Made by a program: the position numbers and the translations under genes. The notes under the pieces are model-generated. The model did not search any database. It was not told the origin of the DNA and saw nothing but the letters and a program-made list of their open reading frames with translations. 49,343 nucleotides of DNA from positions 1 through 49,343 of IMG/VR virus record IMGVR_UViG_3300033571_018524; one strand, written 5' to 3'. Source of the stretch: a virus. Positions 7,548-35,589 of this stretch are shown here, piece by piece (positions within the stretch are counted from its first letter, which is position 1; each line of letters starts with the position of its first letter).

Positions 7548-8243
7548 TTATTTTTTTGCTAATAAATTATTGCCTTGATCATCAAAAACTGGATTTTTTA
7601 CTAATGGCGCAATCCAAGTATTTGGTGATTTCTGAGCAATACTGCATTCTTCAGTACCATATTTATGGAAAGTTCCTGGCCATTTGGTTACTGGAAGCAT
7701 AAAGTTTGAATATGCATATCGCATTCCAGACTTTACTTCACGAACTCCATGCTCATGCTTTGAATGTGCTCCATGGATTATTAAATCTCCAGGTCTTACC
7801 GCATATTCTATTCCTAATTGTGGATAAAATACTTCTCCGCCTTCCCAATCTCCAAAATATGCAATGATTCCATAATCTAAAATACAGCATGTGCTCCATA
7901 AATCTAGGGCTGTAAGCTCATGATCATTTCCGTCCCCTGGGCTATCTGCATGCACAAACATAGTGTCTCCAGGCTTCATTACCTGTAAGCTAAGTCCTGG
8001 GTGAATAACGTGTTCTGGAGCAATAAGGGCAGACATTTGATCCCATACTGGAAGTAATTCAGGAAGAATTGGACCTGCCTTGTCTTTGTACCAATCAACG
8101 CCATGGCGATCAATAATAAAATCTTCATATGAATACTTAGACATAAGGTTATTTATTTCTTGAACCTTTTCTTCTGACACAAAATTCTTATAAACCCAGA
8201 TCTTTTCTTCAATCTGTGTTAAATTTGGATTATCTGCAAACAT
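7548..8243 (-). CDS. 2OG-Fe(II) oxygenase
   Basis: 231 residues with the prolyl-4-hydroxylase-like double-stranded beta-helix signature. The iron triad is His98-x-Asp100 (FVHADSPGD) and His165, and Arg175 fits the 2-oxoglutarate carboxylate ligand ten residues later. GGEVFYPQLG and RPGDLIIHG are the usual flanking strands. Such enzymes hydroxylate proteins, nucleic acids or small molecules; the substrate is unknown. The gene follows an overlapping 50-residue gene (TAATG). Confidence 0.88.
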   Translation of the reverse strand: MFADNPNLTQIEEKIWVYKNFVSEEKVQEINNLMSKYSYEDFIIDRHGVDWYKDKAGPILPELLPVWDQMSALIAPEHVIHPGLSLQVMKPGDTMFVHADSPGDGNDHELTALDLWSTCCILDYGIIAYFGDWEGGEVFYPQLGIEYAVRPGDLIIHGAHSKHEHGVREVKSGMRYAYSNFMLPVTKWPGTFHKYGTEECSIAQKSPNTWIAPLVKNPVFDDQGNNLLAKK

Positions 8244-8395
8244 TATTTTCTCCTTTTAATTTTAAAAAAATTTATAAACTTAAAAAACTTTTCTTCTATT
8301 TTCTTTTCAATTTGCGCCTCTTTACTTTCATGCTGAAAATGATCTGTTTGAAAGTATGGGTTTTGCATCATTTTTGAAAAGTGTCTTGGGCTCAT
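8243..8395 (-). CDS. Basic helical microprotein
   Basis: 50 residues, the last 25 strongly Lys-rich and amphipathic. Its ATG is six bases after TATAAT (8402-8407), so it opens a leaderless transcript that continues into the oxygenase by a TAATG overlap. Not recognised. Confidence 0.65.
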   Translation of the reverse strand: MSPRHFSKMMQNPYFQTDHFQHESKEAQIEKKIEEKFFKFINFFKIKRRK

Positions 8396-8397
8396 AT

Positions 8398-8643
8398 CTA
8401 TATTATATCATTTGTTATTCTATATTTTATCTTTTTCCATTGTCCAATAATGCCTCTATTGACCCTTTCTATTAGAAGTTTACTGAATTCTGGGTGAGGA
8501 TTTGGGTCTCCTATATATTCTTGACCCGTTTCCATATCTATAATTTTCCATTTTCCTGGACATTTAGTATGGATTATTAGATCAATTGGTTGATCAAAAT
8601 CATCAACCAATTGTCCGTCTAATAATTTTCTTTTTTTATCCAT
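8398..8643 (-). CDS. Hypothetical protein
   Basis: 81 residues with KWKIIDMETGQEYIG, beta-like, and one Cys. Not recognised. Its start overlaps the AhpD stop by eight bases, so it belongs to the AhpC-AhpD operon. Its final codons hold the promoter for the next unit. Confidence 0.65.
   Translation of the reverse strand: MDKKRKLLDGQLVDDFDQPIDLIIHTKCPGKWKIIDMETGQEYIGDPNPHPEFSKLLIERVNRGIIGQWKKIKYRITNDII
8402..8413 (-). promoter_or_regulatory. Extended -10 promoter, leaderless
   Basis: AAATGATATAAT on the minus strand, six bases before ATG 8395. It lies in the last codons of the upstream gene. There is no clear -35; the TG before the hexamer suggests an extended -10. Confidence 0.75.
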
Positions 8644-9151
8644 TTAGTATCTTGGATACAGCATTAATTGTAGCAGCAATTCTTGCTATGTCTCTTAGTT
8701 GTTCTGTTTTATATCCTAAGTCTTTTAATGATTTGTAATGAGCTTTAACACAAGCATGACATTTACCAATAATTGATGCGCCTAAAGAATAGCCCTCAAA
8801 TTTAGTTTTTTCTGTCCCGCCATGATTAGCCATGGCATTCATTCTTAGTTGAGCAGGCAATCCTTTCAGATCATCTTCATTAATCATTTCAATAAAAGGA
8901 TACCAAGTATTGTTTTGAGCCATTAATGCTCCAGCAGCTAAAGCTGCATCTCTATCAACTTCATTTGTTGCATACTGAGAAATAAATTGAACTAACTTAC
9001 CGTTACCAGTTGCAACAGCACATGCTAGAGATATGTACATGGCATCGTCTGGATTAATACCAGTGCTTCTGTTTATGACTGCATCAAGATTTAACTTGAT
9101 ATCTTTTGCATAATCAGGAATTTGATTTTGTAATTCTTCTACCCAAGTCAT
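8636..9151 (-). CDS. ahpD: AhpD-like alkylhydroperoxidase
   Basis: 171 residues, all helical, of the carboxymuconolactone decarboxylase/AhpD superfamily. The active-site string GKCHACVKAH gives Cys131, Cys134 and His138, with Glu119 twelve residues before the first Cys, as in mycobacterial AhpD. In Mycobacterium AhpD reduces AhpC through its CxxC, taking electrons from dihydrolipoamide. Here ahpC lies just upstream in the same operon, separated only by a 59-residue gene that overlaps both. A complete pair on a phage would let the infected cell detoxify peroxides. Confidence 0.88.
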   Translation of the reverse strand: MTWVEELQNQIPDYAKDIKLNLDAVINRSTGINPDDAMYISLACAVATGNGKLVQFISQYATNEVDRDAALAAGALMAQNNTWYPFIEMINEDDLKGLPAQLRMNAMANHGGTEKTKFEGYSLGASIIGKCHACVKAHYKSLKDLGYKTEQLRDIARIAATINAVSKILNG

Positions 9152-9327
9152 TTTAATCTAGACCACTTTCTGCCAGACCATTCATACTTAAGCAAGCACT
9201 CGCATTGCCAAATAGATCCAGCGTGTCTTTTTTGTAGATGTATTGCTCCCATACCTGGTTCATTTACAGACCATGGTAATTCACATTGATGACCTTTATC
9301 TTCACCAATCAATACAATCCAGGTCAT
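9148..9327 (-). CDS. Small protein between AhpC and AhpD
   Basis: 59 residues, opening MTWIVLIGEDKGHQCELPW, with three Cys (one C-x-C pair, QCECLL) and several Trp. It overlaps the AhpC stop (ATGA) and the AhpD start (ATGA), so all three must be translated in step. Not recognised; a role in the redox pair is an inference from position. Confidence 0.65.
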   Translation of the reverse strand: MTWIVLIGEDKGHQCELPWSVNEPGMGAIHLQKRHAGSIWQCECLLKYEWSGRKWSRLK

Positions 9328-9875
9328 CTAATTACATCTCCTCCGACTTCTCTGTTGCAAGCACAGAGTTCGCCTGTTTGGAGCGCATCTAAAATTCTTA
9401 ATGTCTCTTGAGGATTTCTTCCGACATCATGATTATTCACAGTTACATGCTGGATTACATTGTTTGGATCAACAATGAATGTTGCTCTATACGCAGAACC
9501 ATGCTTATGAGAAAAAACTCCTAGCTGTTCAGATAGAGAAAGTTCTCCTCTTTGTGTATCTGCAAACATCCATGTTTTTGTTTTCTTTAGGTCTTCATGT
9601 GAATTTCGCCATGCAATTTTACAAAATTCATTGTCTGTTGAGCCAATTAAAATTTGTGCATCTCTATCCCAGAAGTCCTGCGCTAGAGCGTCGTAAGCAA
9701 CAATTTCAGTTGGGCAAACAAAAGTAAAGTCTTTTGGATAAAAAACAATAACCTTCCACTTGCCTTCAAAATCTAACTCGCATAGGTTTTCAAATGATTC
9801 TGATGTGTAGTCAAGCATTCCTGGCTTTACTCCTACAACAGAAAATTTTTCTAATTTATCTCCGATTGTTTTCAA
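9324..9875 (-). CDS. ahpC: AhpC-type 2-Cys peroxiredoxin
   Basis: 183 residues, full length. The peroxidatic Cys54 is in FYPKDFTFVCPTEI and the active-site Arg130 in AYRATFIVD. Near the C-terminus GELCACNREVGG carries Cys171 and Cys173, the two extra Cys typical of mycobacterial AhpC that cooperate with AhpD. The start is TTG 9875, with GAGGAA upstream. It is followed by overlapping genes for a small protein and AhpD. Confidence 0.93.
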   Translation of the reverse strand: MKTIGDKLEKFSVVGVKPGMLDYTSESFENLCELDFEGKWKVIVFYPKDFTFVCPTEIVAYDALAQDFWDRDAQILIGSTDNEFCKIAWRNSHEDLKKTKTWMFADTQRGELSLSEQLGVFSHKHGSAYRATFIVDPNNVIQHVTVNNHDVGRNPQETLRILDALQTGELCACNREVGGDVIR

Positions 9876-9876
9876 T

Positions 9877-10122
9877 TTATATTTCCTCTATAGATTTAAT
9901 TTCATTAATGTGATTACATTCTGTAATACATTTTTTATGAGATTCTTTTAATATATTGATAGCTTTTTTTATCACTACAGATTTATAATGAGTTCTCCAT
10001 TTTAACCACAGAGCCTCTTGTTCTAAATCTATATTTGCAACAAGTCTGACTGTATCTGTATCTGTTAATTCAAATACTTTTACGTATTCTGACATATTTA
10101 TGCCATCAACTTTATCATTCAT
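9877..10122 (-). CDS. Hypothetical protein heading the AhpC operon
   Basis: 81 residues, not recognised. It has an acidic N-terminal half, a Lys-rich helix, and two Cys near the C-terminus. ATG 10122 is six bases after TATAAT (10134-10129), so it starts a leaderless transcript that runs into ahpC. Confidence 0.7.
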   Translation of the reverse strand: MNDKVDGINMSEYVKVFELTDTDTVRLVANIDLEQEALWLKWRTHYKSVVIKKAINILKESHKKCITECNHINEIKSIEEI

Positions 10123-10128
10123 CGTTAC

Positions 10129-10150
10129 ATTATACCATTTATGCTATAAT
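10129..10150. promoter_or_regulatory. Bidirectional leaderless promoter
   Basis: Two divergent -10 boxes lie 10 bp apart: TATAAT on the minus strand (10134-10129) and on the plus strand (10145-10150). Together they form a near palindrome. Each box is six bases from its ATG (10122 minus, 10157 plus), so only 34 bp separate two genes that both lack a leader. Confidence 0.8.
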
Positions 10151-10156
10151 AAAAGA

Positions 10157-10720
10157 ATGCATGTATCAATAGAAAATAAATTTATGGCAGACCAAGATTG
10201 TGACCTTTTAATTAATTTTATTGAAAATAATTTAGATAAATTTAATACGGGTAAATTCAAAAGGGCGCATAGATTACTATTTGGCATAGACTATTGGCAC
10301 GGGGAATCAATCCCAGAAATTAGAGACATAGATCCGATTAAAGATATTGTCTTTAAATACTTTGATAAAATAATTAAACATGCTAACGTTACCTATGGAG
10401 ATGACAAGAAGTACTATATTAGCTCTTTTTGGTTAGCCCGTCAAATTAAAGATGCTTTTTTAGATATTCACGGAGACACAGACGGAGATAGAAATCCTCA
10501 GTTAGAATATAGTTACGGTATATATTTAAATACAGTAGAAAAAGATGGAGAATTAGTATTCCCTAAATTAGATTATAAATATAAACCTATAAAGGGCGAT
10601 GTGCTGTACTGGCCTTCAAAAGATCCTATTTTTGATCATGAAGTTCCATTAATTACAGATACAAGATATACAATGTTAGTTTGGTTAACAACTGATAAAA
10701 AATACGCTTTAGTTGATTAA
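10157..10720 (+). CDS. 2OG-Fe(II) oxygenase (rightward)
   Basis: 187 residues from ATG 10157, six bases after TATAAT; an in-frame ATG at 10100 lies upstream of the promoter. Iron ligands His105-x-Asp107 (DIHGDTDGD) and His161, with Arg170 nine residues later for 2-oxoglutarate. The strand GELVFPKLDYKYKP and KGDVLYWPS are standard for the fold. It is the only rightward gene in the leftward arm and its end overlaps the next, convergent oxygenase by 12 bases. Confidence 0.88.
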   Translation: MHVSIENKFMADQDCDLLINFIENNLDKFNTGKFKRAHRLLFGIDYWHGESIPEIRDIDPIKDIVFKYFDKIIKHANVTYGDDKKYYISSFWLARQIKDAFLDIHGDTDGDRNPQLEYSYGIYLNTVEKDGELVFPKLDYKYKPIKGDVLYWPSKDPIFDHEVPLITDTRYTMLVWLTTDKKYALVD

Positions 10721-12868: not shown

Positions 12869-12871
12869 TTT

Positions 12872-13242: not shown

Positions 13243-13243
13243 A

Positions 13244-13405: not shown

Positions 13406-13426
13406 AATATTTCTCCTATAGGTTTA

Positions 13427-21455: not shown

Positions 21456-21650
21456 TTAATCCTCTTTTCTTAATGGAATTGTTATTAACCAGATAACTGT
21501 GGCGGCAATTGTAGCTAAACCAACGACATCTTGCGCTGTGCCAGTTAATGTTAACCAAGCAATAAAGAAGCCTAGAAGGGTCCAGACCTGGGCTATGCTC
21601 TCTTTTACTGCCTCCCATATCCAATTAAAAAAACCTTTAATTATTTTCAT
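21456..21650 (-). CDS. Small membrane protein (holin-like)
   Basis: 64 residues; an amphipathic N-terminal helix with Trp, then hydrophobic segments at about 22-37 and 43-58, and a charged end. ATG 21650 touches the PA14 gene stop. A second holin or antiholin is possible. Confidence 0.65.
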   Translation of the reverse strand: MKIIKGFFNWIWEAVKESIAQVWTLLGFFIAWLTLTGTAQDVVGLATIAATVIWLITIPLRKED

Positions 21651-23662
21651 TATATCCTCCTAGTCATGGCTGCTGCCACAATATTACTTGCAATAATTAC
21701 AGGAATTACAACTTCCTGTGCTTTTTCTCTTTGGTCATCTGTCATATCAGATCCCCAATTTGAAATATCAAATATTTTTTCAAAATCTATATCTGCAATT
21801 GCTCCAATTGGATCCGATAAAAATGCTTCTGTGGTAACCTCAGTCGTTGCATCTGCTAATGTATATGGCATAGGAGCATTAGCGTTTTCTTTTATTCTAT
21901 CACCAAATTCTTCCAAAGCTTTTGCAACTGTTGGTTCTGATGCTGCTAATGCTGCTACCTTTGCTAATTCTTCTGTTTTAATTCCAAGACCTTGTGCTAC
22001 CGCCTCTTTTTGTTCTGGACTTAATTTAGTTAATGTATCTTTGCTTGTTAAATCTGCAATTAGGTTTGCCGTTTCTTCTGTGATAGTATTAGGTTGTGAT
22101 GGTTTTTCAGAAGGTTCAGCAGGAGTTGGCTCTGGTTCAGGAGTTGGATCTGGATCTATATCCGATGGCAGAGGTGAAGGCTCTGGTGAAGGCTCAACAG
22201 TGGGCTCTGGTTCAGGAGTTGGATCTGGCTTCGGTTCATTTGTGGTTTCGGAATCTGGAGTCGGAGTGGGATCGTCTGGTAAAGTTTGCTCAGGCGATGG
22301 TTCAGGAGAAGATTCTGGCGTAGGTGCAATTGTTGCATCTGGTGTTGGCTGCGGTTGATTTGCCATAGCAGCAGCAATAGCTGCTTGAACTCTTTGTTGC
22401 TCTTCAAATTGCCAAGTTTCATTATATGAATCCCAAGCATCTTCTATTGCATTATTCATATCAATAATTGCTTGATCATAAGCAAATGTAGCATTATTTT
22501 TAGCAGTCAAGGCATCTGCTGTATTTATTACAGCAGTATCATATGCAGTAGTCTTAGTTGTTAATGTTTGATTATATGTAGTTAATGTATTATTTGCAGT
22601 ATTATATGCAGTAAGTTTTGTATTATATGTTGCTAATTTAATATTGTAATCTGTTTGTGCCGCCGCTTGTGCAGTTACTGCTTCATTATATGCATCAATT
22701 TGAGCTTGTGTAGCACCAGTGCCATGTGAAAATGTATTTGGATTACAAGTAAAGTTTACACCCCATGTATCAGGATAATAACATCCTGCTCCAGTCCATC
22801 CGCCAGGGATTGCCCACCCCAAATGAAAATAACCTGGACCTCCACCATTGTACCACCAAATTTCCACATCTAAAGTTTTATTCTGACTAACATCATATAC
22901 TGGAGAATATTCACTCCATGTAGATCCCTGTTCTACCCATTGATCAATTACTTGTACGCCATTGATGTACATTTTAAAACCATCGTCTGTATATCCTGCA
23001 AAATATGTTGATGTCCAATTTGATGGAACAGTAATTTTTCCAGTAAACTTAACTACAATATTTTCATATCTTCCACATGTTGCAGACCCAGGAGATAAAG
23101 AATTTGAAGTCAATACTCCGCTACACAAATATTGATCTGGGACAGCAGTATTAGATAGCCACAAAAATGAATATTGTCTTGCAAGAATATAAACATCATA
23201 ATGTAATCCAACAGATCCAGCATTTTGAACTATTGATTGGGCTGTTTGTAAATTAGTATTTGCGGTAGAAAGATTTAATTGAGCTATATCAAGAGCATTT
23301 TTAGCAGAATTTTTTTGATTTAATGCTGTAGCAACTGTTGCTGTTTGTCCATCGACTGCTGATTGAGCTAAATTCTTTTCTTCTAATGCCGTTGCTTGTG
23401 CTGCTACCGCCGTATCATATGCAGTATATGCAGCATCTCTAGCCTGTTTTGCAGACACTGCATCATCATACTTATTTTCTGCTATATCTATAAGGGCTTG
23501 AGTTTCAGCTTCTTCGTTTAGATTACTTACTTTTTCATTAAGCTCTTGTATTTCTTGAGCAGCTAAGCTTAATGGATCGTCACTATAAGCAGGTGTTAGG
23601 AATAGCCAACCAAACCCTAAAATGGCTGCTAATGATAATCTCCATGCCTTAGTCCTAGTCAA
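21650..23662 (-). CDS. Secreted PA14-domain surface protein with Pro-rich stalk
   Basis: 670 residues from TTG 23662, with AGGAG six bases before. Order: signal peptide (cleavage near AYS, residue 27); coiled coil to about 145; PA14-like domain about 150-300 (YTDDGFKMYINGVQVIDQW; PA14 domains often bind glycans); a second coiled coil to about 430; a Glu-Pro-Ser/Thr-Pro stalk about 435-535; a helical domain; and a C-terminal hydrophobic segment ending TRRI, which looks like a membrane anchor. It should be exported and held on the cell surface, perhaps binding polysaccharide or blocking adsorption. Alternative: a virion fibre, but the signal peptide argues against it. Confidence 0.75.
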   Translation of the reverse strand: MTRTKAWRLSLAAILGFGWLFLTPAYSDDPLSLAAQEIQELNEKVSNLNEEAETQALIDIAENKYDDAVSAKQARDAAYTAYDTAVAAQATALEEKNLAQSAVDGQTATVATALNQKNSAKNALDIAQLNLSTANTNLQTAQSIVQNAGSVGLHYDVYILARQYSFLWLSNTAVPDQYLCSGVLTSNSLSPGSATCGRYENIVVKFTGKITVPSNWTSTYFAGYTDDGFKMYINGVQVIDQWVEQGSTWSEYSPVYDVSQNKTLDVEIWWYNGGGPGYFHLGWAIPGGWTGAGCYYPDTWGVNFTCNPNTFSHGTGATQAQIDAYNEAVTAQAAAQTDYNIKLATYNTKLTAYNTANNTLTTYNQTLTTKTTAYDTAVINTADALTAKNNATFAYDQAIIDMNNAIEDAWDSYNETWQFEEQQRVQAAIAAAMANQPQPTPDATIAPTPESSPEPSPEQTLPDDPTPTPDSETTNEPKPDPTPEPEPTVEPSPEPSPLPSDIDPDPTPEPEPTPAEPSEKPSQPNTITEETANLIADLTSKDTLTKLSPEQKEAVAQGLGIKTEELAKVAALAASEPTVAKALEEFGDRIKENANAPMPYTLADATTEVTTEAFLSDPIGAIADIDFEKIFDISNWGSDMTDDQREKAQEVVIPVIIASNIVAAAMTRRI
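22060..22345 (-). repeat. Coding repeat: Pro-rich stalk
   Basis: Imperfect tandem codons for Glu-Pro-Ser-Pro and Thr-Pro units in the PA14 protein. The complementary strand shows Gly-Ser repeats, an artefact of the same DNA. Such tracts are prone to length change. Confidence 0.7.
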
Positions 23663-23713: not shown

Positions 23714-23896
23714 CTACTTAGCGTTATCTGTTTTATAAAAGCCAGTACCTTTAAACTGTATTCCAAAACTGTTATATGCTCTAACCATATTGTATCCGCA
23801 TGACGGACATTGCGGAATTTGTTCTGTATCATTTATGCTTCTTGTTACTTCAATTGATTTATCACAAGTAACACAACCGTACTCATATATTGGCAT
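23714..23896 (-). CDS. FmdB-type zinc-ribbon protein
   Basis: 60 residues. MPIYEYGCVTCDK, then PQCPSCGYNMVRAYNS and IQFKGTGFYKTD, match the FmdB/putative regulatory zinc-ribbon family common in Actinobacteria (C-x2-C twice). Function is not established. The start overlaps the luciferase-like gene stop by 14 bases. Confidence 0.85.
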   Translation of the reverse strand: MPIYEYGCVTCDKSIEVTRSINDTEQIPQCPSCGYNMVRAYNSFGIQFKGTGFYKTDNAK

Positions 23897-24692
23897 TGTT
23901 AATCTCCCTTATAAGCTCTTTTGCCATTTTGTGCATAACATCTTCCTGTTCTGGCTCTACAGGAGAAATCAAAGCATTTGTTATTCCAATTTCAGATAAG
24001 GAAATTATTTGTTTGATTACCTCTTCTTTTGTTCCATAGACGGCAGAATCCATCATCATGTCATTGTTTCCCCATAATTTTAAAATTTTTTCTTCAGCTT
24101 CTTCATTTGTATCTGCTATACAAACTGGAACGGAAACCATTTTGCCTTTACACTTAATTTTATCTTTCATTAAATTTTTATATGTTGAAAGCATCATAAG
24201 CTGTTCATCCGCATATAGCTCAGCATTTTTATTTGCCATATCTGAGTAACCACTGATAATGATTTCTGGTAAATCTTTAGAAATTTTTGTAAATTTTTCT
24301 AACCATTCTTTTGTATAAAAAACTCTTTTTTCTGTAGTATTAATAAGATCAGAAATAAATACTACATCAGAAACACTTGTTTCATGCTCGTGTAGGTCTC
24401 CAGCAACAACATTTAATTTTAATCTGCCTGGCTGGATTTCATTAAAAGAATTACAAATCATATTACAATACTCAGGGCTGATGGCGTAAGTTCTCATGGC
24501 TATAATAAATTTAAATTTATGTGATGTGTCAAGGTATCTTGCACATTTAATCCAATAATCTGATACCGTAGAATGATAAACAAAAAGAATTCCGTCATAC
24601 CCCGTATCATTTAATACATTAAAAAAATTCTTGATACTTTCTGGGTTTTCCATATTAGTTTGAGTATACCTACTCATATAACTAATTTTCAT
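23883..24692 (-). CDS. Luciferase-like flavin monooxygenase
   Basis: 269 residues, TIM-barrel luciferase-like monooxygenase superfamily (FMN or F420 dependent). IAMRTYAISPEYCNMICNSF and QPGRLKLNVVAGDLHEHE correspond to the family's core strands; the C-terminal EVIKQIISLSEIGITNALI is the usual last helix-strand. It is slightly shorter than cellular members (about 300-350). Substrate unknown. Actinobacteria use many F420 enzymes, so F420 is possible. AAGG precedes the ATG. Confidence 0.75.
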   Translation of the reverse strand: MKISYMSRYTQTNMENPESIKNFFNVLNDTGYDGILFVYHSTVSDYWIKCARYLDTSHKFKFIIAMRTYAISPEYCNMICNSFNEIQPGRLKLNVVAGDLHEHETSVSDVVFISDLINTTEKRVFYTKEWLEKFTKISKDLPEIIISGYSDMANKNAELYADEQLMMLSTYKNLMKDKIKCKGKMVSVPVCIADTNEEAEEKILKLWGNNDMMMDSAVYGTKEEVIKQIISLSEIGITNALISPVEPEQEDVMHKMAKELIREINNANI

Positions 24693-25767: not shown

Positions 25768-26016
25768 CTAGCCTAATAATTTTTTTACAGTTGGGACACA
25801 ATTTGGAACCTTTTTACCATTTTTGGTTTTCCATCCAATTTGTTCAAATCCTTCCCAACATGGATTAGATTTTGATACTTCACTTGCATATAAAGCACGT
25901 AAATGTGCTGTGGCACGAGATTTAGATGGATGGCATCCTACTAGTTCGCCAGTTCCTTCTTTAACGACTGCATATCCTTTACAGCCTGCAGTTCCCTGTT
26001 TAATTTGCCAAGGCAT
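25768..26016 (-). CDS. Conserved small phage protein with four Cys
   Basis: 82 residues. GTAGCKGYAVVKEGTGELVGCH and, at the end, NPCWEGFEQIGWK and VPNCVP match a small protein I recall from several tailed-phage groups, function unknown. The Cys may form disulfides or bind metal. Downstream of Dps; start ATG touches its stop. Confidence 0.65.
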   Translation of the reverse strand: MPWQIKQGTAGCKGYAVVKEGTGELVGCHPSKSRATAHLRALYASEVSKSNPCWEGFEQIGWKTKNGKKVPNCVPTVKKLLG

Positions 26017-26471
26017 TATAAGTTAAAAGTTGTCCCCAATGAGGCACGAAGTTTCCATTGCCATTTTTGATGAACATCTATCCTCTCTGCTATAAAATTA
26101 GCTACCCCTTCTTCACCTGCTTGAGTTGCAATAGGGAAAGCATTTTTTAAATCATTAATAATAATTTCATTTGAATTATATAAAGACTGAAGCATTGCTA
26201 TTGGATTGCTAATTTCTGGAGTTAAATCGTATTTAACATTTGACATCATTAAAGAATCTGATATGCTAAAAGAAGCTTTTGCTCCAAATCGTCTAATCCA
26301 TTCTGCGTAATCATCTACAGAATTCCATGCATCTTCATAAATCTCGCCAAAAAATGAATGGAACTGATCAAAAAGTATTCCTTCTACATCCCAATGATAC
26401 CCATGAGCTTTAGAATAGTAAACAAAAGCGTTGGCCTGGAGCTTTTTAAGGGTATATATTAATTCTTCCAT
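26016..26471 (-). CDS. dps: Dps-like ferritin
   Basis: 151 residues, four-helix ferritin fold of the Dps type. Ligands of the intersubunit ferroxidase site are visible: His26 (YHWDVEG), His38 (FHSFFGEIYEDA) and Asp53/Glu57. There is no long basic N-terminal tail, so DNA binding may be weak. It would oxidise and store iron using peroxide, fitting the AhpC/AhpD set. ATG 26471 lies six bases after TATAAT, hence leaderless. Confidence 0.85.
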   Translation of the reverse strand: MEELIYTLKKLQANAFVYYSKAHGYHWDVEGILFDQFHSFFGEIYEDAWNSVDDYAEWIRRFGAKASFSISDSLMMSNVKYDLTPEISNPIAMLQSLYNSNEIIINDLKNAFPIATQAGEEGVANFIAERIDVHQKWQWKLRASLGTTFNL

Positions 26472-26992: not shown

Positions 26993-27653
26993 TTAAGTTT
27001 TGAAAATGAAAATTCATAATTAAAGTTGCTCGTGGCTGATCAACTATTACTTCGTGAATAACCCCTTTTGGAATAAAAATAACATCACCTGGGCTTAAAT
27101 TATATTCAGTAAAATTTCTACCCTCAACATTTAATGGAACTTCAAATTGATCAGAACTAACTCCATCATAAATTTTATAAGTTACTGTGCCAATACAGTG
27201 CCAAGACAGTACGTCTACAACGTCTTTATGTGGGCTATAATATGATTCGTTACCGACTAAATTAACTAAAGACTTAATACCCCATTGAGTAGTGCCTATA
27301 ACTTTTGTAAAAATATCAGTAAACTCTTTAGATTCTGGAATAAATTCTTGTCCATTAACCCTATCGTCGGGCCCTTGAGACAAAACATTCCACACCTGCA
27401 GATCCATTTTATTATAAATTAAAATATCAGTTTCTATAGTTTGAGGAATCCCATCAATAAAAACTCCTTCTTTTACAATAAATCTTTTATCTCCTGATTC
27501 AACATGTTTTTTTTCAGGATTATTATATTTATTGTTAATAGCAGAAACAAAACTTGACCAGTCTGGGTTTTTTGATATTAAATTTTTAAAATATACTTCT
27601 TTTGTTTCTGACTTTGCTTTGATAAAATCATTTTTAATTGATTCTATATTCAT
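26985..27653 (-). CDS. JmjC/cupin-like protein 2
   Basis: 222 residues. SPHKDVVDVLSWHCIGTVTY gives His142-x-Asp144; SPGDVIFIPKGVIHEVIVDQ gives His200, and PRATLI follows as in the first member. A tandem, diverged duplication. The N-terminal 80 residues are helical. It sits between a 2OG oxygenase and its paralogue, so the three probably act in one pathway. Confidence 0.7.
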   Translation of the reverse strand: MNIESIKNDFIKAKSETKEVYFKNLISKNPDWSSFVSAINNKYNNPEKKHVESGDKRFIVKEGVFIDGIPQTIETDILIYNKMDLQVWNVLSQGPDDRVNGQEFIPESKEFTDIFTKVIGTTQWGIKSLVNLVGNESYYSPHKDVVDVLSWHCIGTVTYKIYDGVSSDQFEVPLNVEGRNFTEYNLSPGDVIFIPKGVIHEVIVDQPRATLIMNFHFQNLND

Positions 27654-28504
27654 AAATTAATTTTATTTCCTTTTGTAATAAAAAATGGAGTTGCCCCATC
27701 TCTTTCTGTGTACTCTTCTCCTGGAAATACTAAATATCTATGCCATTTTCCTGTTTTAACGTCTGAAACAAATTGCTCTTTCCACATTTCGGCCCATTTT
27801 TCTTTACCATATTTCTTTTCATTTTCTAACCATTCAGGTGATCCTTCGTAGTCCCACTGCCAGAATGTTCTTATAAGATATTTGTTTCCGTTGGTTACTG
27901 CCTTTACTCCATGATAAAAAGGTTCTGCGGAAGGAAATACAACCATGTCTCCAGCTTTTGGTTTATAATCAATTACATCTTCTTTTTCTACATGCAAGAA
28001 AGATATTTCTCCGCCATCATATTCATCATTTAAATAAATAGTACAAGTTAATCCAAATTTAAATCCTGGCTCTGCAGCTTTATAGGGGGCATAGTCTGTA
28101 TGATACATCATTGCAAGAGCATTTCTTTCTGGAGTTGGATCGTATTTGTTAATTGATAATCCGCTCTTGTGCCAATTTGGTAATTCAAAATTCCATTCTT
28201 TAATGAAATCAGAAGTTACTGCATGAAATGCTTCAGAAATAGTTTCAATAAAATATTTTTGTTTTGCATTAGATTCGTTATCTGTTCCTGGAGGCATGTG
28301 TTCTCCTGGATCAACCATTGGGCAATCTGTCATAATTCCAAAACCGTACCAGTCTCTCCACGGCTCAAAATAATCGCCTTCTTTTAAATAACCTTCTTGT
28401 TCTGTTTCTTTAATGATTTCAAGAAGTTCTTTGACGTTTGGCAAAGCTTTGGTATACACAGAAACCTGTGGGTAAACAATAATTCTTTCTAAATCTATGC
28501 TCAT
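27650..28504 (-). CDS. 2OG-Fe(II) oxygenase, long form
   Basis: 284 residues, the longest of the seven. His135-x-Asp137 (MYHTDYAP) and His198 (FYHGVKAV) bind iron; ten residues later the usual Arg is Lys208, with Arg212 close by, so the 2-oxoglutarate contact may be changed. GGEISFLHVEKEDVIDYKP is the family strand. A C-terminal 65-residue tail is extra. AAAGGGAG precedes the ATG. It heads the run with the two cupin proteins. Confidence 0.83.
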   Translation of the reverse strand: MSIDLERIIVYPQVSVYTKALPNVKELLEIIKETEQEGYLKEGDYFEPWRDWYGFGIMTDCPMVDPGEHMPPGTDNESNAKQKYFIETISEAFHAVTSDFIKEWNFELPNWHKSGLSINKYDPTPERNALAMMYHTDYAPYKAAEPGFKFGLTCTIYLNDEYDGGEISFLHVEKEDVIDYKPKAGDMVVFPSAEPFYHGVKAVTNGNKYLIRTFWQWDYEGSPEWLENEKKYGKEKWAEMWKEQFVSDVKTGKWHRYLVFPGEEYTERDGATPFFITKGNKINL

Positions 28505-28519: not shown

Positions 28520-29941
28520 TTAAACAATTATATCATTTTTATATGTAGTTTTCCAAAGCTCTATGTCAAATTTATCATTTAATAGTGGCTGCCCTTTTAT
28601 ATTTAAACTAGTGTTTAATAATACAGGAACTCCTGTTACCACATACCATTCTGATAAAAGACTATATAGTCCTGGATGTTGTTTTTTATTTACTGTTTGA
28701 ACTCTAGATGTTCCATCAGCATGAACTACTGAAGGTATTTTATCTGGCTGTAAACATTTAGGTGTGTATTGCATGTACGGAGATTCATAGTTCATATCAA
28801 ACCATTTTGATGCATGCTCAGCCAAAACTACTGGAGCAAATGGCCTAAACAACTCTCTTTGTTTAATCAAATTAACTTTATCTTTAATGTTTGGATCTCT
28901 AGGATCTGCCAGAATACTTCTATTGCCTAAAGCTCTTGGACCAAATTCCGCTCTTCCTGTTGCTACTGCTGCAATTTTATTTCTAATTAATTCTGTAATT
29001 ATTTCTTTTACAGGATATTCTCCTCCAAGGTCATGTCCTAAATATGGACCTTTCCAATTTATATGTTTTCCATACATAGCTGCTGCTGCACCTAAAGAGC
29101 TTCCCGCATCTCCTGGGTTCGGCATAATCCAAACATCTTTAAAAATATTCCACAATAAAGTATTAGCTTTGCTGTTTAAAGCACATCCACCCATAAAAAC
29201 AAGATTTTGTTTACCTGTTGAATGTTTTACCATTTGCATAAAATCTATTAATCTTTGTTCATAAACAAATTGAACTGCTGCAGCAATATCAAACTTATCT
29301 TGTTCTGTTATTGGCAAATCCCAATCTTTTATTCCTTTATGAAAATTGTAAGATTGTATATGATATTTTGGAAAATAACTATCTACTTTTTCATAATATT
29401 TTTTCCAATCTCCGTATGCTGCCATACCCATCATAATATATTCTTCTTGATTTGGCATAAGACCAATTAATTGCGTAAAGGCTGAATAAAATAATCCGAA
29501 ACTTACTGGATAATTTTGTTTATATTTTAATTTTATTTTTTCACCCTCACCGATCCAGACGGTGGAAGTATTGTACTCTCCTATTGCATCTAAAACTACT
29601 ATAGCAGCATCAAAAAAATTACTAGTATAGTATCCTGCTGCTGCATGAGAATAATGATGTTTGAAATATTTTACTGGTAAGTCCATTGGAATATTTGGCT
29701 TCCAATCTGCCTGACCACCTTTTAAAATAATTCTTGACTGCTTTAACCTTGGTTTTTCATAATATGCTATATGTGTTGGTGTTCCATAATTTAACATATC
29801 TAAATAAATTTCTTTATTGTTATACCAATCATTTTTTTGTTTGCTGTATCTTTCTGCATGACCTGCAAAAAGTATTTCTCCATCCTTAATTAAAGATATT
29901 GCTGCGTCATGAGATGTTTCATTTATGCCTAGAATAATCAA
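28520..29941 (-). CDS. Carbamoyltransferase (NodU/TobZ-like)
   Basis: 473 residues from TTG 29941, with AGAAGGA upstream and directly after the preceding stop. The N-terminal ASKHA fold shows LGINETSHDAAISLI; HHYSHAAAGYYTS carries the His pair of the Kae1-like part; GNRSILADPRD and VLLNTSLNIKGQP belong to the C-terminal carbamoyl-phosphate domain. Family members carbamoylate sugars or antibiotics via carbamoyl-AMP. Its oxygenase and SGNH neighbours suggest modification of a glycan or small ligand. Confidence 0.88.
   Translation of the reverse strand: MIILGINETSHDAAISLIKDGEILFAGHAERYSKQKNDWYNNKEIYLDMLNYGTPTHIAYYEKPRLKQSRIILKGGQADWKPNIPMDLPVKYFKHHYSHAAAGYYTSNFFDAAIVVLDAIGEYNTSTVWIGEGEKIKLKYKQNYPVSFGLFYSAFTQLIGLMPNQEEYIMMGMAAYGDWKKYYEKVDSYFPKYHIQSYNFHKGIKDWDLPITEQDKFDIAAAVQFVYEQRLIDFMQMVKHSTGKQNLVFMGGCALNSKANTLLWNIFKDVWIMPNPGDAGSSLGAAAAMYGKHINWKGPYLGHDLGGEYPVKEIITELIRNKIAAVATGRAEFGPRALGNRSILADPRDPNIKDKVNLIKQRELFRPFAPVVLAEHASKWFDMNYESPYMQYTPKCLQPDKIPSVVHADGTSRVQTVNKKQHPGLYSLLSEWYVVTGVPVLLNTSLNIKGQPLLNDKFDIELWKTTYKNDIIV
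28527..28538 (-). promoter_or_regulatory. Extended -10 promoter
   Basis: AAATGATATAAT on the minus strand, inside the 3' end of the carbamoyltransferase gene. A leader of about 20 bases with AAAGGGAG leads to ATG 28504. Confidence 0.7.
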
Positions 29942-29942
29942 T

Positions 29943-30539
29943 TTATTTTCCTTCTGGCCAAATATCTGGTGTGCTTGCAAAAGAAATATCACTATATTTT
30001 TCTAACACAAGCATTGCTGTGTACCTATAAGAATCTTCTACAGTTTTAATTCTATGCCATAAATGGGTAGGAAAAATAATTACAGTTCCAGGTACTGGTT
30101 TGTACTCTATGTTAAGATCATCAAAATAAAGTTCCCCGCCTTTAAAATCATCATTTAAATACAGAACTGCAACGTAACCTTTAATGCCATCTTCTGGATC
30201 ATCTATATTCATATCTTGATGAGACATAAAGTTTTCTCTTGGACCAATTTTTGTCATAATAAAATTAGGTCTTGGACTAAATCCTGTTTCGTTATACATT
30301 GTTAAAAATTTTCTAAATTTAGTTTTAAAGATAGCTTCTAGCTGTTGATGTAAAATAAAAGCAGTACTCTGATGTTTTTCTTTTCTTTTAATTAAGAACA
30401 TAGGGCCCCTGCGTGGAGAGTCATACCAGGCATAGTCTGGATTTTCTCCTTCTCCTAATTCTTTTACAAGACTAAGTATGCTTTCATGCCCATTTACATG
30501 GAAAACAACAATTCTATTTTTTTCATCTAAAATTATCAT
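29943..30539 (-). CDS. 2OG-Fe(II) oxygenase
   Basis: 198 residues from ATG 30539, six bases after TACAAT (30551-30546); an in-frame ATG at 30566 precedes the promoter. His107-x-Asp109 (SHQDMN), His162 (LWHRIKTV) and Arg172 complete the site. GGELYFDDLNIEYKP is standard. It lies immediately upstream of the carbamoyltransferase. Confidence 0.87.
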   Translation of the reverse strand: MIILDEKNRIVVFHVNGHESILSLVKELGEGENPDYAWYDSPRRGPMFLIKRKEKHQSTAFILHQQLEAIFKTKFRKFLTMYNETGFSPRPNFIMTKIGPRENFMSHQDMNIDDPEDGIKGYVAVLYLNDDFKGGELYFDDLNIEYKPVPGTVIIFPTHLWHRIKTVEDSYRYTAMLVLEKYSDISFASTPDIWPEGK

Positions 30540-30543
30540 ATAT

Positions 30544-31560
30544 CTATTGTACCAAATACCTCTCAAAGCATTCTGCTAAATGCATATGAGAATGTACCCC
30601 TGGGTGTCCTGTACCTACCTTGATATCTGTGCCTTTATCAAAATGTATTCCTACAACGTCTTTTAATGCATTGTGGTTGCATTTAGGAAACATTGGTTTT
30701 TTTAAAAAAGTTTCTCTTTCTGTAAAGCTACAAAGATCGGAATCAAGTGTAATAAAATATTCAAATGGATTTATTTCCGATATCAATGACTCAGCTCTAT
30801 AATCCCATGTTGCCCACTTTAAATTAATTCCTGTTGCTCTGCAGTATTGTTCTAGCATGTGTATATAAAATATTGACTCGGCAAAAGCCATGTCTGGGCT
30901 TACTGATTCATCATAAGGAATTGGTTTTTTTAAAAATTTTTCTCCTTTTGAATTAAAACCTAACAGTTTAAATCTCCAATAGGGGTATTTATCAAATGGA
31001 GATATTGTCATGTCTTGCCAGTCCGAATTCATTGGAAATTTCATTCTATCAAAACTTGGAAATAAACAAAATAAATTTTTAGGATTTCCAAATTCTTTAA
31101 AATAGGCAAAAAGATTTAAAACAATTCCCTGAACACTATCCCCAGGAGTGGATACGTTGGCGTATCTAAGATTATATTTATTTGCAATTTGAGTTCCCCA
31201 TATCCATTTTTCTGGAATTCCTACTCCAAATGTTACAGAATCTCCTGCAAAAACAAAATTTTCTTCTTTAACAAAATGACTTGACCTAAATCCATATACA
31301 TTTTGCATATATTCATTATGATCATCCCATAAAACTTCTAAGTCAAATGATCTAAACATAAATGTTTTTAAATCAAAAATTAAAAACAAAGGATTATAAT
31401 ATTTTATTAATGGATTAACAAATGGATCTTCTCTGCCTGAAAGAGGATTTGAAATAAATCTTTTAATAAATTTATCATTTACTCTTTCATTTAAATTGTG
31501 TGACCCTACAATATTTAACTCTTTAATTATTTTTATGATTTTTTCTATATCAGGTTTCAT
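30544..31560 (-). CDS. SGNH/GDSL hydrolase-like protein 1
   Basis: 338 residues. FAGDSVTFGVGI (residues 104-115) is the block-I GDS motif with Ser108; TPGDSVQG near 138-145 fits block II; HPGVHSHMHLAE near the end supplies the catalytic His region. SGNH enzymes remove acyl groups from sugars or lipids. No signal peptide. It is paired with a distant paralogue at 31951. Confidence 0.75.
   Translation of the reverse strand: MKPDIEKIIKIIKELNIVGSHNLNERVNDKFIKRFISNPLSGREDPFVNPLIKYYNPLFLIFDLKTFMFRSFDLEVLWDDHNEYMQNVYGFRSSHFVKEENFVFAGDSVTFGVGIPEKWIWGTQIANKYNLRYANVSTPGDSVQGIVLNLFAYFKEFGNPKNLFCLFPSFDRMKFPMNSDWQDMTISPFDKYPYWRFKLLGFNSKGEKFLKKPIPYDESVSPDMAFAESIFYIHMLEQYCRATGINLKWATWDYRAESLISEINPFEYFITLDSDLCSFTERETFLKKPMFPKCNHNALKDVVGIHFDKGTDIKVGTGHPGVHSHMHLAECFERYLVQ
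30546..30554 (-). promoter_or_regulatory. -10 TACAAT with TG extension, leaderless
   Basis: TTTGGTACAAT on the minus strand, six bases before ATG 30539, within the last codons of the SGNH gene. Confidence 0.6.
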
Positions 31561-31855: not shown

Positions 31856-31864
31856 TTATTTCTC

Positions 31865-31954
31865 CTAATAAATAAAATCACTTCTACCTCTTTTTGTTTT
31901 TTTCTTTTTTATTTTTTGTAAATAATAACCAATTATTAAAAAAACTTTTTTCAT
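31865..31954 (-). CDS. Tiny membrane-basic peptide
   Basis: 29 residues: a hydrophobic segment VFLIIGYYL followed by a very basic tail (KIKKKKTKRGR). ATGA overlap with the upstream SGNH gene. It could be a membrane-active peptide or chance frame. Confidence 0.4.
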   Translation of the reverse strand: MKKVFLIIGYYLQKIKKKKTKRGRSDFIY

Positions 31955-32859
31955 CTTGATACCTCAAAAAATATTTCTGCTAAATGGATATGTCTATGGT
32001 AACCCCAATGGGCATACTCCACTCCGTTTTCTTGATCTGGAGCAAAATGAAAATTTTTTGGTCTTTCTGCATGTTCTTTTTCATGGCATTTTGTAAATAC
32101 TAATGTTTTAGGGTCATTGTAGTTTATTATTTTTTCCATCGGATCAACAACCCACATTTCATTATATATATTTACTAAATTTTCATTGCCTTTATATGTA
32201 ACTAAATTTTCTTTTACAAACATTAAAGCTTCATATTGTTTTTGGTGCCACGTTGCCCAATATAATTTTATGTCTAAAGCTTTGCAATATTCTTCTAAAT
32301 ACATTATTTGTAAGTTTGAATAATATTGACACATATCTTGCGGGAATATAAATTCTGGTTCATAAGGAATTTTAAAATATTTATCTTCAGTAAAAGTTTC
32401 AACATTTGCTGTTGTTATGTAGTCTTTTATTCCATCAGATTTATGTTGCATCTTGAAAAAATTTTCATTATTAGGAAGCTCTATCCTATTAAATCCTGGG
32501 AATAAAGCAAAAATATATTCTGGAGCGCCATATTGTTTTATGTATGCAAATATTGCTCTAACTTGTCTTCCAACCGAACTTCCTGCTAGGGCTATATTAT
32601 TATATTCAAGACCCATTTTTTTTGCCAATACGTCTGCCCAAACTTCTTCTTTTTCTATGCCTCCACCGACGGTCATTGAGCATCCTGCAATTAATAAAGG
32701 TTTTGCAGATTTTATTTCTGTTGCTATATATGGAAATCTATGAGTATATATTTCTTTATACTTATCATCACTCATGTCGTACTTATCGGTTTTTTTATTT
32801 GACAACAAAGCATCAAAGTAATCGTTTGTAAAAGAATAAACAAACTCACTTGGAGACAT
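31951..32859 (-). CDS. SGNH hydrolase-like protein 2
   Basis: 302 residues. LLIAGCSMTVGGGI has GCS in place of GDS, with Ser61 kept; LAGSSVGRQV fits the next block, and AHWGYHRHIHLAEIF near the end matches the His region of the first member. Both share the plan and the WATW-type segment. The D-to-C change may alter activity. It follows the tRNA at 32878. Confidence 0.72.
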   Translation of the reverse strand: MSPSEFVYSFTNDYFDALLSNKKTDKYDMSDDKYKEIYTHRFPYIATEIKSAKPLLIAGCSMTVGGGIEKEEVWADVLAKKMGLEYNNIALAGSSVGRQVRAIFAYIKQYGAPEYIFALFPGFNRIELPNNENFFKMQHKSDGIKDYITTANVETFTEDKYFKIPYEPEFIFPQDMCQYYSNLQIMYLEEYCKALDIKLYWATWHQKQYEALMFVKENLVTYKGNENLVNIYNEMWVVDPMEKIINYNDPKTLVFTKCHEKEHAERPKNFHFAPDQENGVEYAHWGYHRHIHLAEIFFEVSR

Positions 32860-32877
32860 ACAATTAACACCTTTCCG

Positions 32878-32951
32878 TACAACAGGTAGGACTTGAACCT
32901 ACGATAACCGAATTATGAGTTCGGGGCCTTGACCAACTTGGCTACTGTTGC
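32878..32951 (-). tRNA. tRNA with anticodon CAT (Met or Ile2)
   Basis: Acceptor GCAACAG pairs with CTGTTGT (one G-U). Anticodon stem CCGAA/TTCGG holds loop CTCATAA, anticodon CAT. T-arm GTAGG/CCTAC has TTCAAGT. CCA is not encoded. The stem lacks the three G-C pairs of initiator tRNA, so it is an elongator Met or, if modified to lysidine, an Ile tRNA. Confidence 0.9.
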
Positions 32952-32963
32952 CTAGCTGATACA

Positions 32964-32969
32964 ATTATA
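32964..32969 (-). promoter_or_regulatory. -10 box upstream of the CAT tRNA
   Basis: TATAAT on the minus strand, 12 bases before the tRNA, overlapping the stop of the preceding gene. No clear -35. Confidence 0.45.
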
Positions 32970-33213
32970 TATTTTTTTCATCCTTTTTGTCAATAACCAT
33001 TTGTGCAATTTCTTGTACATATTCTGAAAAATGTTTTCTAACACTTCCCTTTGGTCTTCCGCCAACTTCGTTCCATATTCTAATATACTGTTGAATATTT
33101 TCAAATGTTGTAGGACATACTTTTATTCCTTCTATTTCTTTTAAAACAATAGGAAGTGGAACATGTTTTCCACAACATTTGCATTCTTTTGCAATTTCTT
33201 GATACTTATTCAT
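32965..33213 (-). CDS. Small zinc-motif protein next to the terminase
   Basis: 82 residues. C-K-C-C-G-K-H at 11-17 and a later Cys (VCPTTF) give a possible zinc site. GGRPKGSVRKHFSEYV follows, an AT-hook-like core. Overlaps the large terminase stop (ATGA), so it may assist packaging. Not otherwise recognised. Confidence 0.65.
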   Translation of the reverse strand: MNKYQEIAKECKCCGKHVPLPIVLKEIEGIKVCPTTFENIQQYIRIWNEVGGRPKGSVRKHFSEYVQEIAQMVIDKKDEKNI

Positions 33214-35012
33214 ATAATCATCATCCTATCAACGGCTTCTCTTAAATGCTCTGGCATTCTTGGGGCTCTAATAACATTCTGTCTATGTTCCACTTCTCCG
33301 TCTGCCTGACTCATATCAGACTCAAAAGACATAGATTCGTAATTATGAATTCTAATTTCTTGATTTATATCAGGACGAGTATTGCTTATTGCATTAAATA
33401 CTGCTCCACATGCAGAATCTGCTAAGTCTTTAGATCCTTTTCTTGGGTGGTCAACTTTATCTTTTAAAATTTTAAGCTGTAATAATTCATCTATTAATAA
33501 TTTAATATTAGGCCCAGTTATTCTTTCTTCTAAAACAACCATAGCTAAATCATCATAATGTTTTTTAGCAACTGATAAAATTTCTGTATTAATATTATAT
33601 TGTTTTAATTGCTGCATCATGTCATGAGAATTCCATCGGTCAAATGTACATAATCTAATGTTGAATCCTCTTGTTTTTAACGCCAATATATAGTCTTTTA
33701 CCTCTGTAAAATCTACAGATTTGTCTGGAGTCGGAGTCCAATATCTAATTGCATCAATATGAACTATTGGGGCTGGCTGTGAATAATCATTTGTAACCTT
33801 AACATTAACCCATCTATCAACATGAGCCATTGTAACCGCACAATGGTCGTGCTTTTGTGCTAAGTCTACGTGAATAAAATAAAGCTTATCTGTTTCTGGT
33901 TTAAACCATTCTTCTAGTCTTCCAAATTGATCTACTGCTAAAGGTAGTTTGCAAAAAGCTTTTTCTATTTTTTCTCTAGATTTAAAAAATGCATCAACCA
34001 TTTCTGGAGGCATACATGCAAATCTTCCCAGAGCATCTAACGGGTTTCGATAAAAATCAACTTTAAAATCTTCAATTTTTTTTGTAGGATTTACATCCCA
34101 TGTAGGTCTTTTCAATGCATACGTCTTTGGATATAAATATGATTTAATGTGGTCTTCTTCCCATTCAACAACAATTTCATTTCCTTCAGTACCGTCTGGC
34201 AAATCGTCATCAATTTTTAATAATTTACTTTGAATAATTGTTTCTTTTTCTGCAATAACTGATTCATAAAATTTTTGAATAGGATCATTTTTAAAACGGG
34301 GAAATGAAAGAAGAATTACTTTTCCATAATCTGGAAAACGAGACATAACGGAAGCTCTATACATTTCATATATTGCGTCAGCTGTTTTTGCCTGATCATG
34401 ACCTGTTGTATTTTCAATGGCAAAACCTGCAATTTCATCCAAGATCACGGTGATTACGTTATAACCTTCGAAAGCTTCTCTTTCTGAGTGGCCTGAATGC
34501 ACAGTAATGTTTTTATCAAATTTAATTTCAGATGCTTTTTCTGTGTATTTTCCATCAAACCAAGCTGACCTGGTAACTCTTGTTTTAAATCCTTTAAAAA
34601 AAACATTGTTTGCTTGTTGAGCGTTGATAGCGATATTAAGTATGTCTATGCTATCTCCTGGAGGTTTTCCATAATAATTTGCAGGATCTTTAAGGCATAA
34701 CAATAAATATACTATATAAGAAACAGCAATTGTAGAACAATAGTCTTTTCCAGAACCTTTGCCTAGTTGGGCTATGACTTCATTGCAAGTTTGTTTAAAT
34801 TTTCTTGTACCCTCTTCTTCTCCGAATAATTTTTTAAGTGTTGATTCTTTGTATATTTGAGAAGATTTTTCAATTAAAGTATATTGATATTCAGAAAGTG
34901 GCGGTAGCCCAAGATAGTCTGGACTTGTTACAAAAGTTTGCAAATCAACAGGACGCTCATCAAACTCTTCTCCGTCTAGTAAATCAATTATGTCATTAAA
35001 ATTAAGATTCAT
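33210..35012 (-). CDS. terL: Terminase large subunit
   Basis: 600 residues. ATPase domain with a Walker A-like GKGSGKD (84-90) and Walker B VILDE (189-193). C-terminal RNase H-like nuclease with Asp383 in FIHVDLAQKHDH and further Asp in LCTFDRWNS and KDLADSACG. It packages and cuts phage DNA at the capsid portal. Small terminase and a 2OG oxygenase lie upstream in the same operon; no portal or capsid gene follows in this window. Confidence 0.9.
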   Translation of the reverse strand: MNLNFNDIIDLLDGEEFDERPVDLQTFVTSPDYLGLPPLSEYQYTLIEKSSQIYKESTLKKLFGEEEGTRKFKQTCNEVIAQLGKGSGKDYCSTIAVSYIVYLLLCLKDPANYYGKPPGDSIDILNIAINAQQANNVFFKGFKTRVTRSAWFDGKYTEKASEIKFDKNITVHSGHSEREAFEGYNVITVILDEIAGFAIENTTGHDQAKTADAIYEMYRASVMSRFPDYGKVILLSFPRFKNDPIQKFYESVIAEKETIIQSKLLKIDDDLPDGTEGNEIVVEWEEDHIKSYLYPKTYALKRPTWDVNPTKKIEDFKVDFYRNPLDALGRFACMPPEMVDAFFKSREKIEKAFCKLPLAVDQFGRLEEWFKPETDKLYFIHVDLAQKHDHCAVTMAHVDRWVNVKVTNDYSQPAPIVHIDAIRYWTPTPDKSVDFTEVKDYILALKTRGFNIRLCTFDRWNSHDMMQQLKQYNINTEILSVAKKHYDDLAMVVLEERITGPNIKLLIDELLQLKILKDKVDHPRKGSKDLADSACGAVFNAISNTRPDINQEIRIHNYESMSFESDMSQADGEVEHRQNVIRAPRMPEHLREAVDRMMII

Positions 35013-35589
35013 TGCCTTTAGGAACCTTTATGTATTCATAAAAATTATTAGAATATGAATATCTTGTGCTAGAAACTACTGGACGAACACCATGTTTACA
35101 ATGCTCATAAGAACTATGAACTACTAAGTCGCCTGGTTCTGGATCATATTCTATATTTTGAGTAGGATAATATATATTTCCACCATTAAACTTATTAAAA
35201 TAAATAACAAACCCCCAGACAGAGTTTGGCTTTAGATCGTATGGGTCTCCTTCTTTTAATTTTTTATTTTCTTCGATTACAGAAAGATAAGTATGATTAT
35301 CTGAATGTTCTCCCCATGAACATCCATCCGTCATTTTTACTATGCACCGTGCTGGCCCAACATGTAGTGTGTTTGGTATAAGATTAGTTAATTTTTCAAC
35401 TAGGATTTCTGTTTCTGGCACATACTTACTAACCATATGCCAATCTTTCATTTCTTTGTTTGCATATTGCCACTCTTCTTTAGGTAAATTTTCTGCAATA
35501 CTAACAAAAGATTCACATTCATCTTTACTTAAAAAATTTTTATATACATAAATGTCTGTACCTAAAGCTTCAAAATTATTATGAAACAT
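35002..35589 (-). CDS. 2OG-Fe(II) oxygenase between terminase subunits
   Basis: 195 residues from ATG 35589, with GAGGAGGA ahead and overlapping the small terminase stop. His95-x-Asp97 (GEHSDN), His166 (CKHGVRPV) and Arg176 form the site. GGNIYYPTQNIEYDPEPGD is typical. It overlaps the large terminase start by 11 bases, so it is expressed together with the packaging genes. That suggests a virion or packaging protein as target, an inference from position. Confidence 0.87.
   Translation of the reverse strand: MFHNNFEALGTDIYVYKNFLSKDECESFVSIAENLPKEEWQYANKEMKDWHMVSKYVPETEILVEKLTNLIPNTLHVGPARCIVKMTDGCSWGEHSDNHTYLSVIEENKKLKEGDPYDLKPNSVWGFVIYFNKFNGGNIYYPTQNIEYDPEPGDLVVHSSYEHCKHGVRPVVSSTRYSYSNNFYEYIKVPKGNES

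Follow-up and report, generated by a model that had tools for sequence, protein, structure and literature searches.

Many divergent genes for 2-oxoglutarate (2OG)-Fe(II) oxygenases of family PF13640 have been described for T4-like cyanophages, which carry 1-5 2OG-Fe(II) oxygenases per genome, with 24 in S-SCSM1, and also a Nol carbamoyltransferase (PMC3037559 and PMC9602691). Since they were first noted, the role of the numerous 2OG oxygenases of aquatic phages has been open (PMC3037559, PMC9602691), and the use of viral prolyl hydroxylases has been called cryptic (PMC9301287). The prolyl 4-hydroxylase (P4H) vCPH of the algal virus PBCV-1 (5c5t) acts on peptides, and Mimivirus, a eukaryotic giant virus, modifies its own repeat proteins with a collagen-hydroxylating and -glycosylating system (as summarised in PMC8968730). 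Among cellular enzymes, the P4Hs of Bacillus anthracis and Pseudomonas putida (3itq, 4iw3) have EF-Tu as a known protein target, and the ribosomal oxygenases YcfD, MINA53, and NO66 belong to the JmjC_2 proteins. The locus compared here is a 49,343-base IMG/VR virus fragment (IMGVR_UViG_3300033571_018524, in its full length referred to as the window), which encodes seven 2OG-Fe(II) oxygenases and two JmjC/cupin proteins. As in the cyanophages, the oxygenases are numerous and divergent. In contrast to the cyanophages, the lineage is that of a Stanwilliamsviridae-like large terminase subunit (TerL), and relatives of the window carry arrays of such oxygenases behind a gene for an FFPP-repeat protein, an arrangement not described in the accessible parts of the cyanophage reports. 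Phages with multiple oxygenases are already known, and the linkage to an FFPP tail protein appears to be undescribed; no report of this linkage, of DUF6065, or of proline-rich repeats with phage prolyl hydroxylases was found in the open-access literature.

All nine open reading frames (ORFs) named in a preliminary description of the window are present:

7548..8243, minus strand: OX1, P4H-like 2OG-Fe(II) oxygenase; H98xD, H165, Arg at +10; homologues (38-48%) in contigs G013 and L065
10157..10720, plus strand, opposite to its neighbours: OX2, 2OG-Fe(II) oxygenase; HGD, His, Arg at +9; PF13640 34.2 bits
10709..11245, minus strand: OX3, 2OG-Fe(II) oxygenase; HID, His, Arg at +10; PF13640 42.9 bits
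11321..11926, minus strand: OX4, 2OG-Fe(II) oxygenase; HSD, His, Arg at +10; PF13640 36.7 bits
26495..26992, minus strand: JmjC/cupin protein with HxD...H; JmjC_2 PF08007 30.4 bits
26985..27653, minus strand: JmjC/cupin paralogue with HxD...H; PF08007 30.9 bits; weak match to MINA53, E 0.027
27650..28504, minus strand: OX5, 2OG-Fe(II) oxygenase with Lys in place of Arg; HTD135, H198, Lys at +10
29943..30566, minus strand: OX6, 2OG-Fe(II) oxygenase; HQD, His, Arg at +10; PF13640 38.9 bits
35002..35619, minus strand: OX7, 2OG-Fe(II) oxygenase at the TerL/phrog_9507 junction; HSD105, H176, Arg at +10; PF13640 28.5 bits

The gene end of OX7 is 35619 with a TTG start and 35589 with an ATG start. 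The motif HxD...H followed by Arg or Lys about ten residues on is kept in all seven oxygenases, with Arg at +9 or +10 in six of them and Lys in OX5, as had been described; H-D-H plus Arg or Lys is also kept in most of 204 cluster representatives. Six of the seven pass the PF13640 gathering cut-off of 27 bits (28.5-50.2 bits). OX1 stays below it with 13.5 bits, aligns with OX7 and its relatives, and matches contig L044 with a blastp E of 5e-26. When sequences from the window and its relatives are used to train a family hidden Markov model, the model detects these seven genes in the window and no others. The description of the other two genes as JmjC/cupin paralogues with HxD...H likewise holds, since both pass the JmjC_2 cut-off (22 bits). 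They share this family and motif with YcfD, MINA53, and NO66 but are much smaller; at 165 and 222 amino acids, they are short for the extra C-terminal domains of ribosomal oxygenases. The oxygenase/cupin set is far beyond chance.

The seven oxygenases had been said to differ too strongly for simple recent copies, and a phylogeny had been proposed as a check. In a FastTree phylogeny of the 204 representatives, in which many deep branches are weak, they occupy seven separate places, and their pairwise identity is 22-38% over locally aligned parts. Both results bear out the claim and rule out a recent single expansion. Decay of the genes is ruled out by the intact motifs and by the clade-wide conservation of K208 in OX5. 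This residue is nearly invariant in 34 aligned sequences, and in alignments the OX5-clade Lys at +10 falls on the Lys found in the P4Hs of PBCV-1 and B. anthracis; it is therefore a subfamily signature and not a sign of decay.

Profile searches connect most of these enzymes to P4Hs. The profile of the OX5 clade has PBCV-1 vCPH as its first match (5.9e-8) and also finds the B. anthracis P4H, which in turn is the first match for the profiles of the OX4 clade (A3, covering OX4 and OX3; 9.6e-19) and of the OX7/OX1 clade (1.2e-9). OX6 alone gives only marginal P4H matches. AlphaFold2 models were made for two of the seven, OX5 (pLDDT 91.9) and OX7 (pLDDT 90.9), and their top PDB fold matches are prolyl hydroxylases and P4Hs, respectively; to this extent, the structure predictions proposed in the preliminary description point to the double-stranded beta-helix of P4H/PHD folds. 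Lys at the position binding the 2OG carboxylate, a mark of collagen-type P4Hs, is found in the OX5 clade only, the other six having Arg. The OX5 clade resembles vCPH, its best PDB sequence match, in the HxD..H..K motif, in being virus-encoded, and in size, but identity is about 18%, and instead of an algal virus there are many divergent copies in phages, with arrays beside a repeat gene in relatives. The B. anthracis and P. putida P4Hs are the closest bacterial relatives in fold and sequence, differing in that they are cellular enzymes. The PHROG labels 'DNA endonuclease' and 'ferrochelatase' (phrog_2297, phrog_274, phrog_3531) are at odds with the 2OG-oxygenase matches of the families concerned and look like annotation noise.

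Relatives with a similar terminase carry 0-11 PF13640 genes each. G009 and G013 have rows of six to eight oxygenase genes, interspersed with DUF6065 genes and placed between tail-fibre-like genes and the portal, protease, and capsid genes. Close upstream of the row, as its direct neighbour in G013 and at a distance of a few genes in G009, there is a gene encoding FnIII-like domains and, after these, FFPPFFPP... or PPGFFSPPGFFS... repeats. The same arrangement is found on one contig in G032, which is collinear with the window and has a TerL 78% identical to that of the window. In all three relatives, the FFPP/PPGFF gene, the array, and the portal and capsid genes lie on a single contig, and G013 and G032 are collinear with the window outside the array region. 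An FFPP array is present in G009, G013, and G032 but not in the window. Arrays number 3-11 oxygenases in close relatives as well as other lineages, and the repeat is of the (F/Y)FPP or PPGFFS type.

To assess the linkage independently of the enzymes, a DNA pattern for [FY]FPP[FY]FPP[FY]F, blind to oxygenases, was scanned over IMG/VR. Oxygenases are present in 92 of the 120 resulting loci (359 genes, 0.326 per kb), compared with 2 of 120 control loci with a PEPT repeat (0.002 per kb) and a density of 0.043 per kb in terminase loci; Fisher p values for FFPP loci against the controls are 8e-38 and 6e-11, with relatedness ignored. Restricting the count to non-redundant FFPP loci with 3 kb or more on the downstream side leaves 66, of which 56 hold oxygenases. 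The link is one-sided, as oxygenases make up 21-54% of the genes at positions +1 to +12 and at most 7% upstream. H-D-H-K enzymes are more frequent at FFPP loci (50/113) than at other places (16/75), and the tree clade of OX4 (support 100) draws nine of its 15 members from FFPP loci; OX4 and OX5 of the window both fall into clades rich in array members. All 22 long repeat-bearing contigs have PF13640 genes, G029 and G030 among them having been fetched by oxygenase similarity and not being independent. Since 13 of these 22 show no related TerL, several lineages probably carry the link; some of the 13 may simply miss the terminase region. The pattern has 31 matches in bacterial genomes; 28 of them lie outside a called repeat ORF, and one of these 28 loci has an oxygenase, whereas oxygenases are nearby at two of the three loci with a real repeat ORF.

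Two other candidate partners were rejected. Collagen-like (GXY) ORFs occur at only 16 of 120 FFPP loci against 5 of 120 controls, so that collagen could be no more than a minor partner of the arrays, and PEPT-type proline repeats, as encoded in the window at 21650-23662, show no association with oxygenases in the control loci.

Taken together, these data lead to a reading that, as a whole, has about an even chance of being correct: the seven enzymes, judged by their profiles and predicted folds, would be functional Fe(II)/2OG peptidyl hydroxylases of the P4H type that hydroxylate peptidyl proline or other residues of virion repeat proteins. During infection, the array enzymes would act on prolines and possibly other residues of the (F/Y)FPP or PPGFFS repeat, every enzyme having a register or site of its own. 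Hydroxylation might stiffen or prime an extensin- or collagen-like part of the tail, and the modified repeat protein would end up in the virion. For the dispersed enzymes of the window, the target may be this protein as well, or else other proteins of the virion or the host. Somewhat more tentatively, and just short of an even chance, it can be proposed that a widespread group of uncultured phages builds a hydroxyproline-rich, extensin- or collagen-like (F/Y)FPP tail protein with a dedicated row of distinct prolyl hydroxylases to process it and that the virus of the window is one of them, with extra enzymes in islands. Such a system would resemble that of Mimivirus in that a virus modifies its own repeat proteins, with an FFPP repeat in place of collagen. 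If the proposal is correct, a kind of post-translational modification regarded as typical of eukaryotes occurs in phage virions. Proline-rich fibres with hydroxylated residues would then be part of phage tails, and the arrays would supply, ready for use, bacterial-type peptidyl hydroxylases of varied specificity. For the aquatic-phage oxygenases, the FFPP linkage, seen at many loci, provides a concrete and testable candidate substrate.

Several observations weigh against this interpretation. No FFPP-repeat gene is present in the window, the structural module lying outside the fragment. The earlier suggestion of structural proteins as substrates is supported only indirectly, by the relatives in which the same enzyme families are arrayed behind a proline-repeat gene of the virion module; the window itself has no corresponding gene. 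OX1, OX3, OX6, and OX7 fall outside the array-dominated clades, and enzymes of PF13640 fold also hydroxylate lysyl and aspartyl residues and small molecules. The relative G006 has the repeat and no PF13640 gene, and ten non-redundant FFPP loci with room downstream have no oxygenase. Linkage alone proves neither the substrate nor the modified residue. Finally, the PBCV-1 precedent cuts both ways: amino-acid analysis of PBCV-1 particles gave no hydroxyproline (reference 162 in PMC7019647), a warning that virions need not carry the mark of a P4H encoded by the virus.

An auxiliary-metabolism view, proposed for cyanophage 2OG oxygenases (PMC3037559), would have the enzymes draw down 2-oxoglutarate or modify host metabolites. 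It leaves the sequence diversity, the arrays, the one-sided FFPP linkage, and the P4H signature unexplained and is considered highly improbable.

Most core genes of the window are 60-89% identical and in the same order in relatives, whereas the oxygenases lie in variable islands at 7.5-12 kb, at 26-31 kb, and at the TerL/phrog_9507 junction. OX2 is inverted relative to its neighbours both in the window and in G018, which has a 44% orthologue, and a 55% orthologue of OX6 occupies the same island in G005. Two context genes are needed for orientation:

28520..29992, minus strand: Nol/TobZ-type O-carbamoyltransferase; phrog_1601 5.7e-106; PF16861/PF02543
33210..35012, minus strand: TerL, lineage marker; phrog_2; 61% identity to Streptomyces phage Gilson

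OX7 had been placed between the terminase genes. Its downstream neighbour is indeed TerL; the neighbour on the other side, at 35579-36115 upstream, belongs to phrog_9507, a family of unknown function. An oxygenase is present at this junction in only 12 of the 67 relatives that could be scored, so the site looks like an insertion point and tells little about the substrate.

The location of the window oxygenases in accessory islands would also suit a takeover of the host, in which the dispersed P4H-like enzymes hydroxylate host EF-Tu and the JmjC_2 pair a ribosomal protein, thereby tuning host translation. Bacterial P4Hs are the best relatives in sequence and fold, with EF-Tu complexes among the PDB entries (5v7y, 4iw3), and JmjC_2 is a ribosomal oxygenase family (PF08007; MINA53 match). 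Nevertheless, a single host target would need fewer than seven divergent copies, the families found in arrays are linked to a gene of the virion, and the MINA53 match is weak, all of which makes this explanation distinctly unlikely.

OX5 and OX6 flank the carbamoyltransferase, and two related proteins with SGNH/GDSL-like motifs, recognized by eye and lacking a Pfam match, are encoded nearby at 30544-31560 and 31951-32859; relatives have one to three copies of such a gene near the carbamoyltransferase. Because these genes share one island, the earlier suggestion of host glycans as substrates is retained as an alternative: the 26-31 kb island would make or decorate a glycan of the capsule, the cell wall, or the virion, in that its oxygenases would create hydroxyls, the carbamoyltransferase would cap them, and the SGNH-like hydrolases would trim acyl groups. 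The carbamoyltransferase is similar to TobZ/GdmN enzymes, whose substrates are sugars and antibiotics, and is kept at 67-79% identity in most relatives mapped, and in cyanophage S-SSM7 a Nol gene adjoins a 2OG oxygenase. However, the oxygenases of this island are replaced from relative to relative and the carbamoyltransferase persists, no glycosyltransferase turned up in those window genes that were searched, and the profile relatives of the oxygenases are peptidyl hydroxylases. Synthesis or decoration of a glycan is thus regarded as unlikely.

The carbamoyltransferase could also serve DNA hypermodification, carbamoylating hydroxymethyl bases made by a TET/JBP-like oxygenase, as a phage 5hmC carbamoyltransferase is known (PMC8670742) and OX6 and OX1 show weak Tet_JBP matches (E 0.0058 and 0.066). 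Their scores of 16.3 and 12.9 bits are far below the cut-off of 34.9 bits, and the P4H matches are much stronger. Furthermore, no gene of the thymidylate-synthase/hydroxymethylase type, which marks modified contigs in PMC8670742, was seen among the window genes searched. This explanation is very improbable.

The TerL of the window is about 80% identical to that of many metagenomic contigs, and its similarity to phage Gilson (Stanwilliamsviridae) relates the virus to actinophages; it belongs to an oxygenase-rich clade of uncultured phages related to Stanwilliamsviridae. These terminase relatives alone would suggest an actinobacterial host, and a freshwater origin may be presumed for the clade. 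Genes for DNA polymerase, primase, helicase, recombinase, and a Cas4-like exonuclease are present in the window. None of the window genes searched was assigned to a portal, capsid, or tail module, and the fragment is therefore probably about half a genome. In isolated phages, tblastn with the low-complexity filter on gave no match to the FnIII-FFPP or DUF6065 proteins.

Within the arrays, DUF6065 (PF19541) and phrog_7084 proteins recur (e.g., L173:3565-5003, L111:6816-8992). They are the two commonest downstream non-oxygenase families, in 68 and 47 FFPP loci, with families assigned by length and position, and are possible array partners. Some FFPP/PPGFF proteins end in a domain that reads as Hint/intein-like (L167:14574-15890, L460:3762-5138, L218:3-785), which suggests self-processing after the repeat. 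FFPP repeat genes with nearby oxygenases also occur on contigs binned as Verrucomicrobiales (L434:6319-6705) and Chitinophagaceae (L452:3807-4589); both contigs are probably phage, and the bins are possible hints to hosts.

Genes for a peroxiredoxin (AhpC/TSA), a carboxymuconolactone-decarboxylase family protein, and a ferritin/Dps-like protein adjoin the oxygenase islands of the window (8636-9875 and 26016-26471) and possibly function in iron and peroxide handling. The PEPT-repeat protein at 21650-23662 is a secreted-looking PA14 protein, and its repeat type is common in oxygenase-free relatives. A Bac_luciferase family gene for a luciferase-like monooxygenase lies at 23883-24692, and several relatives have one, too.

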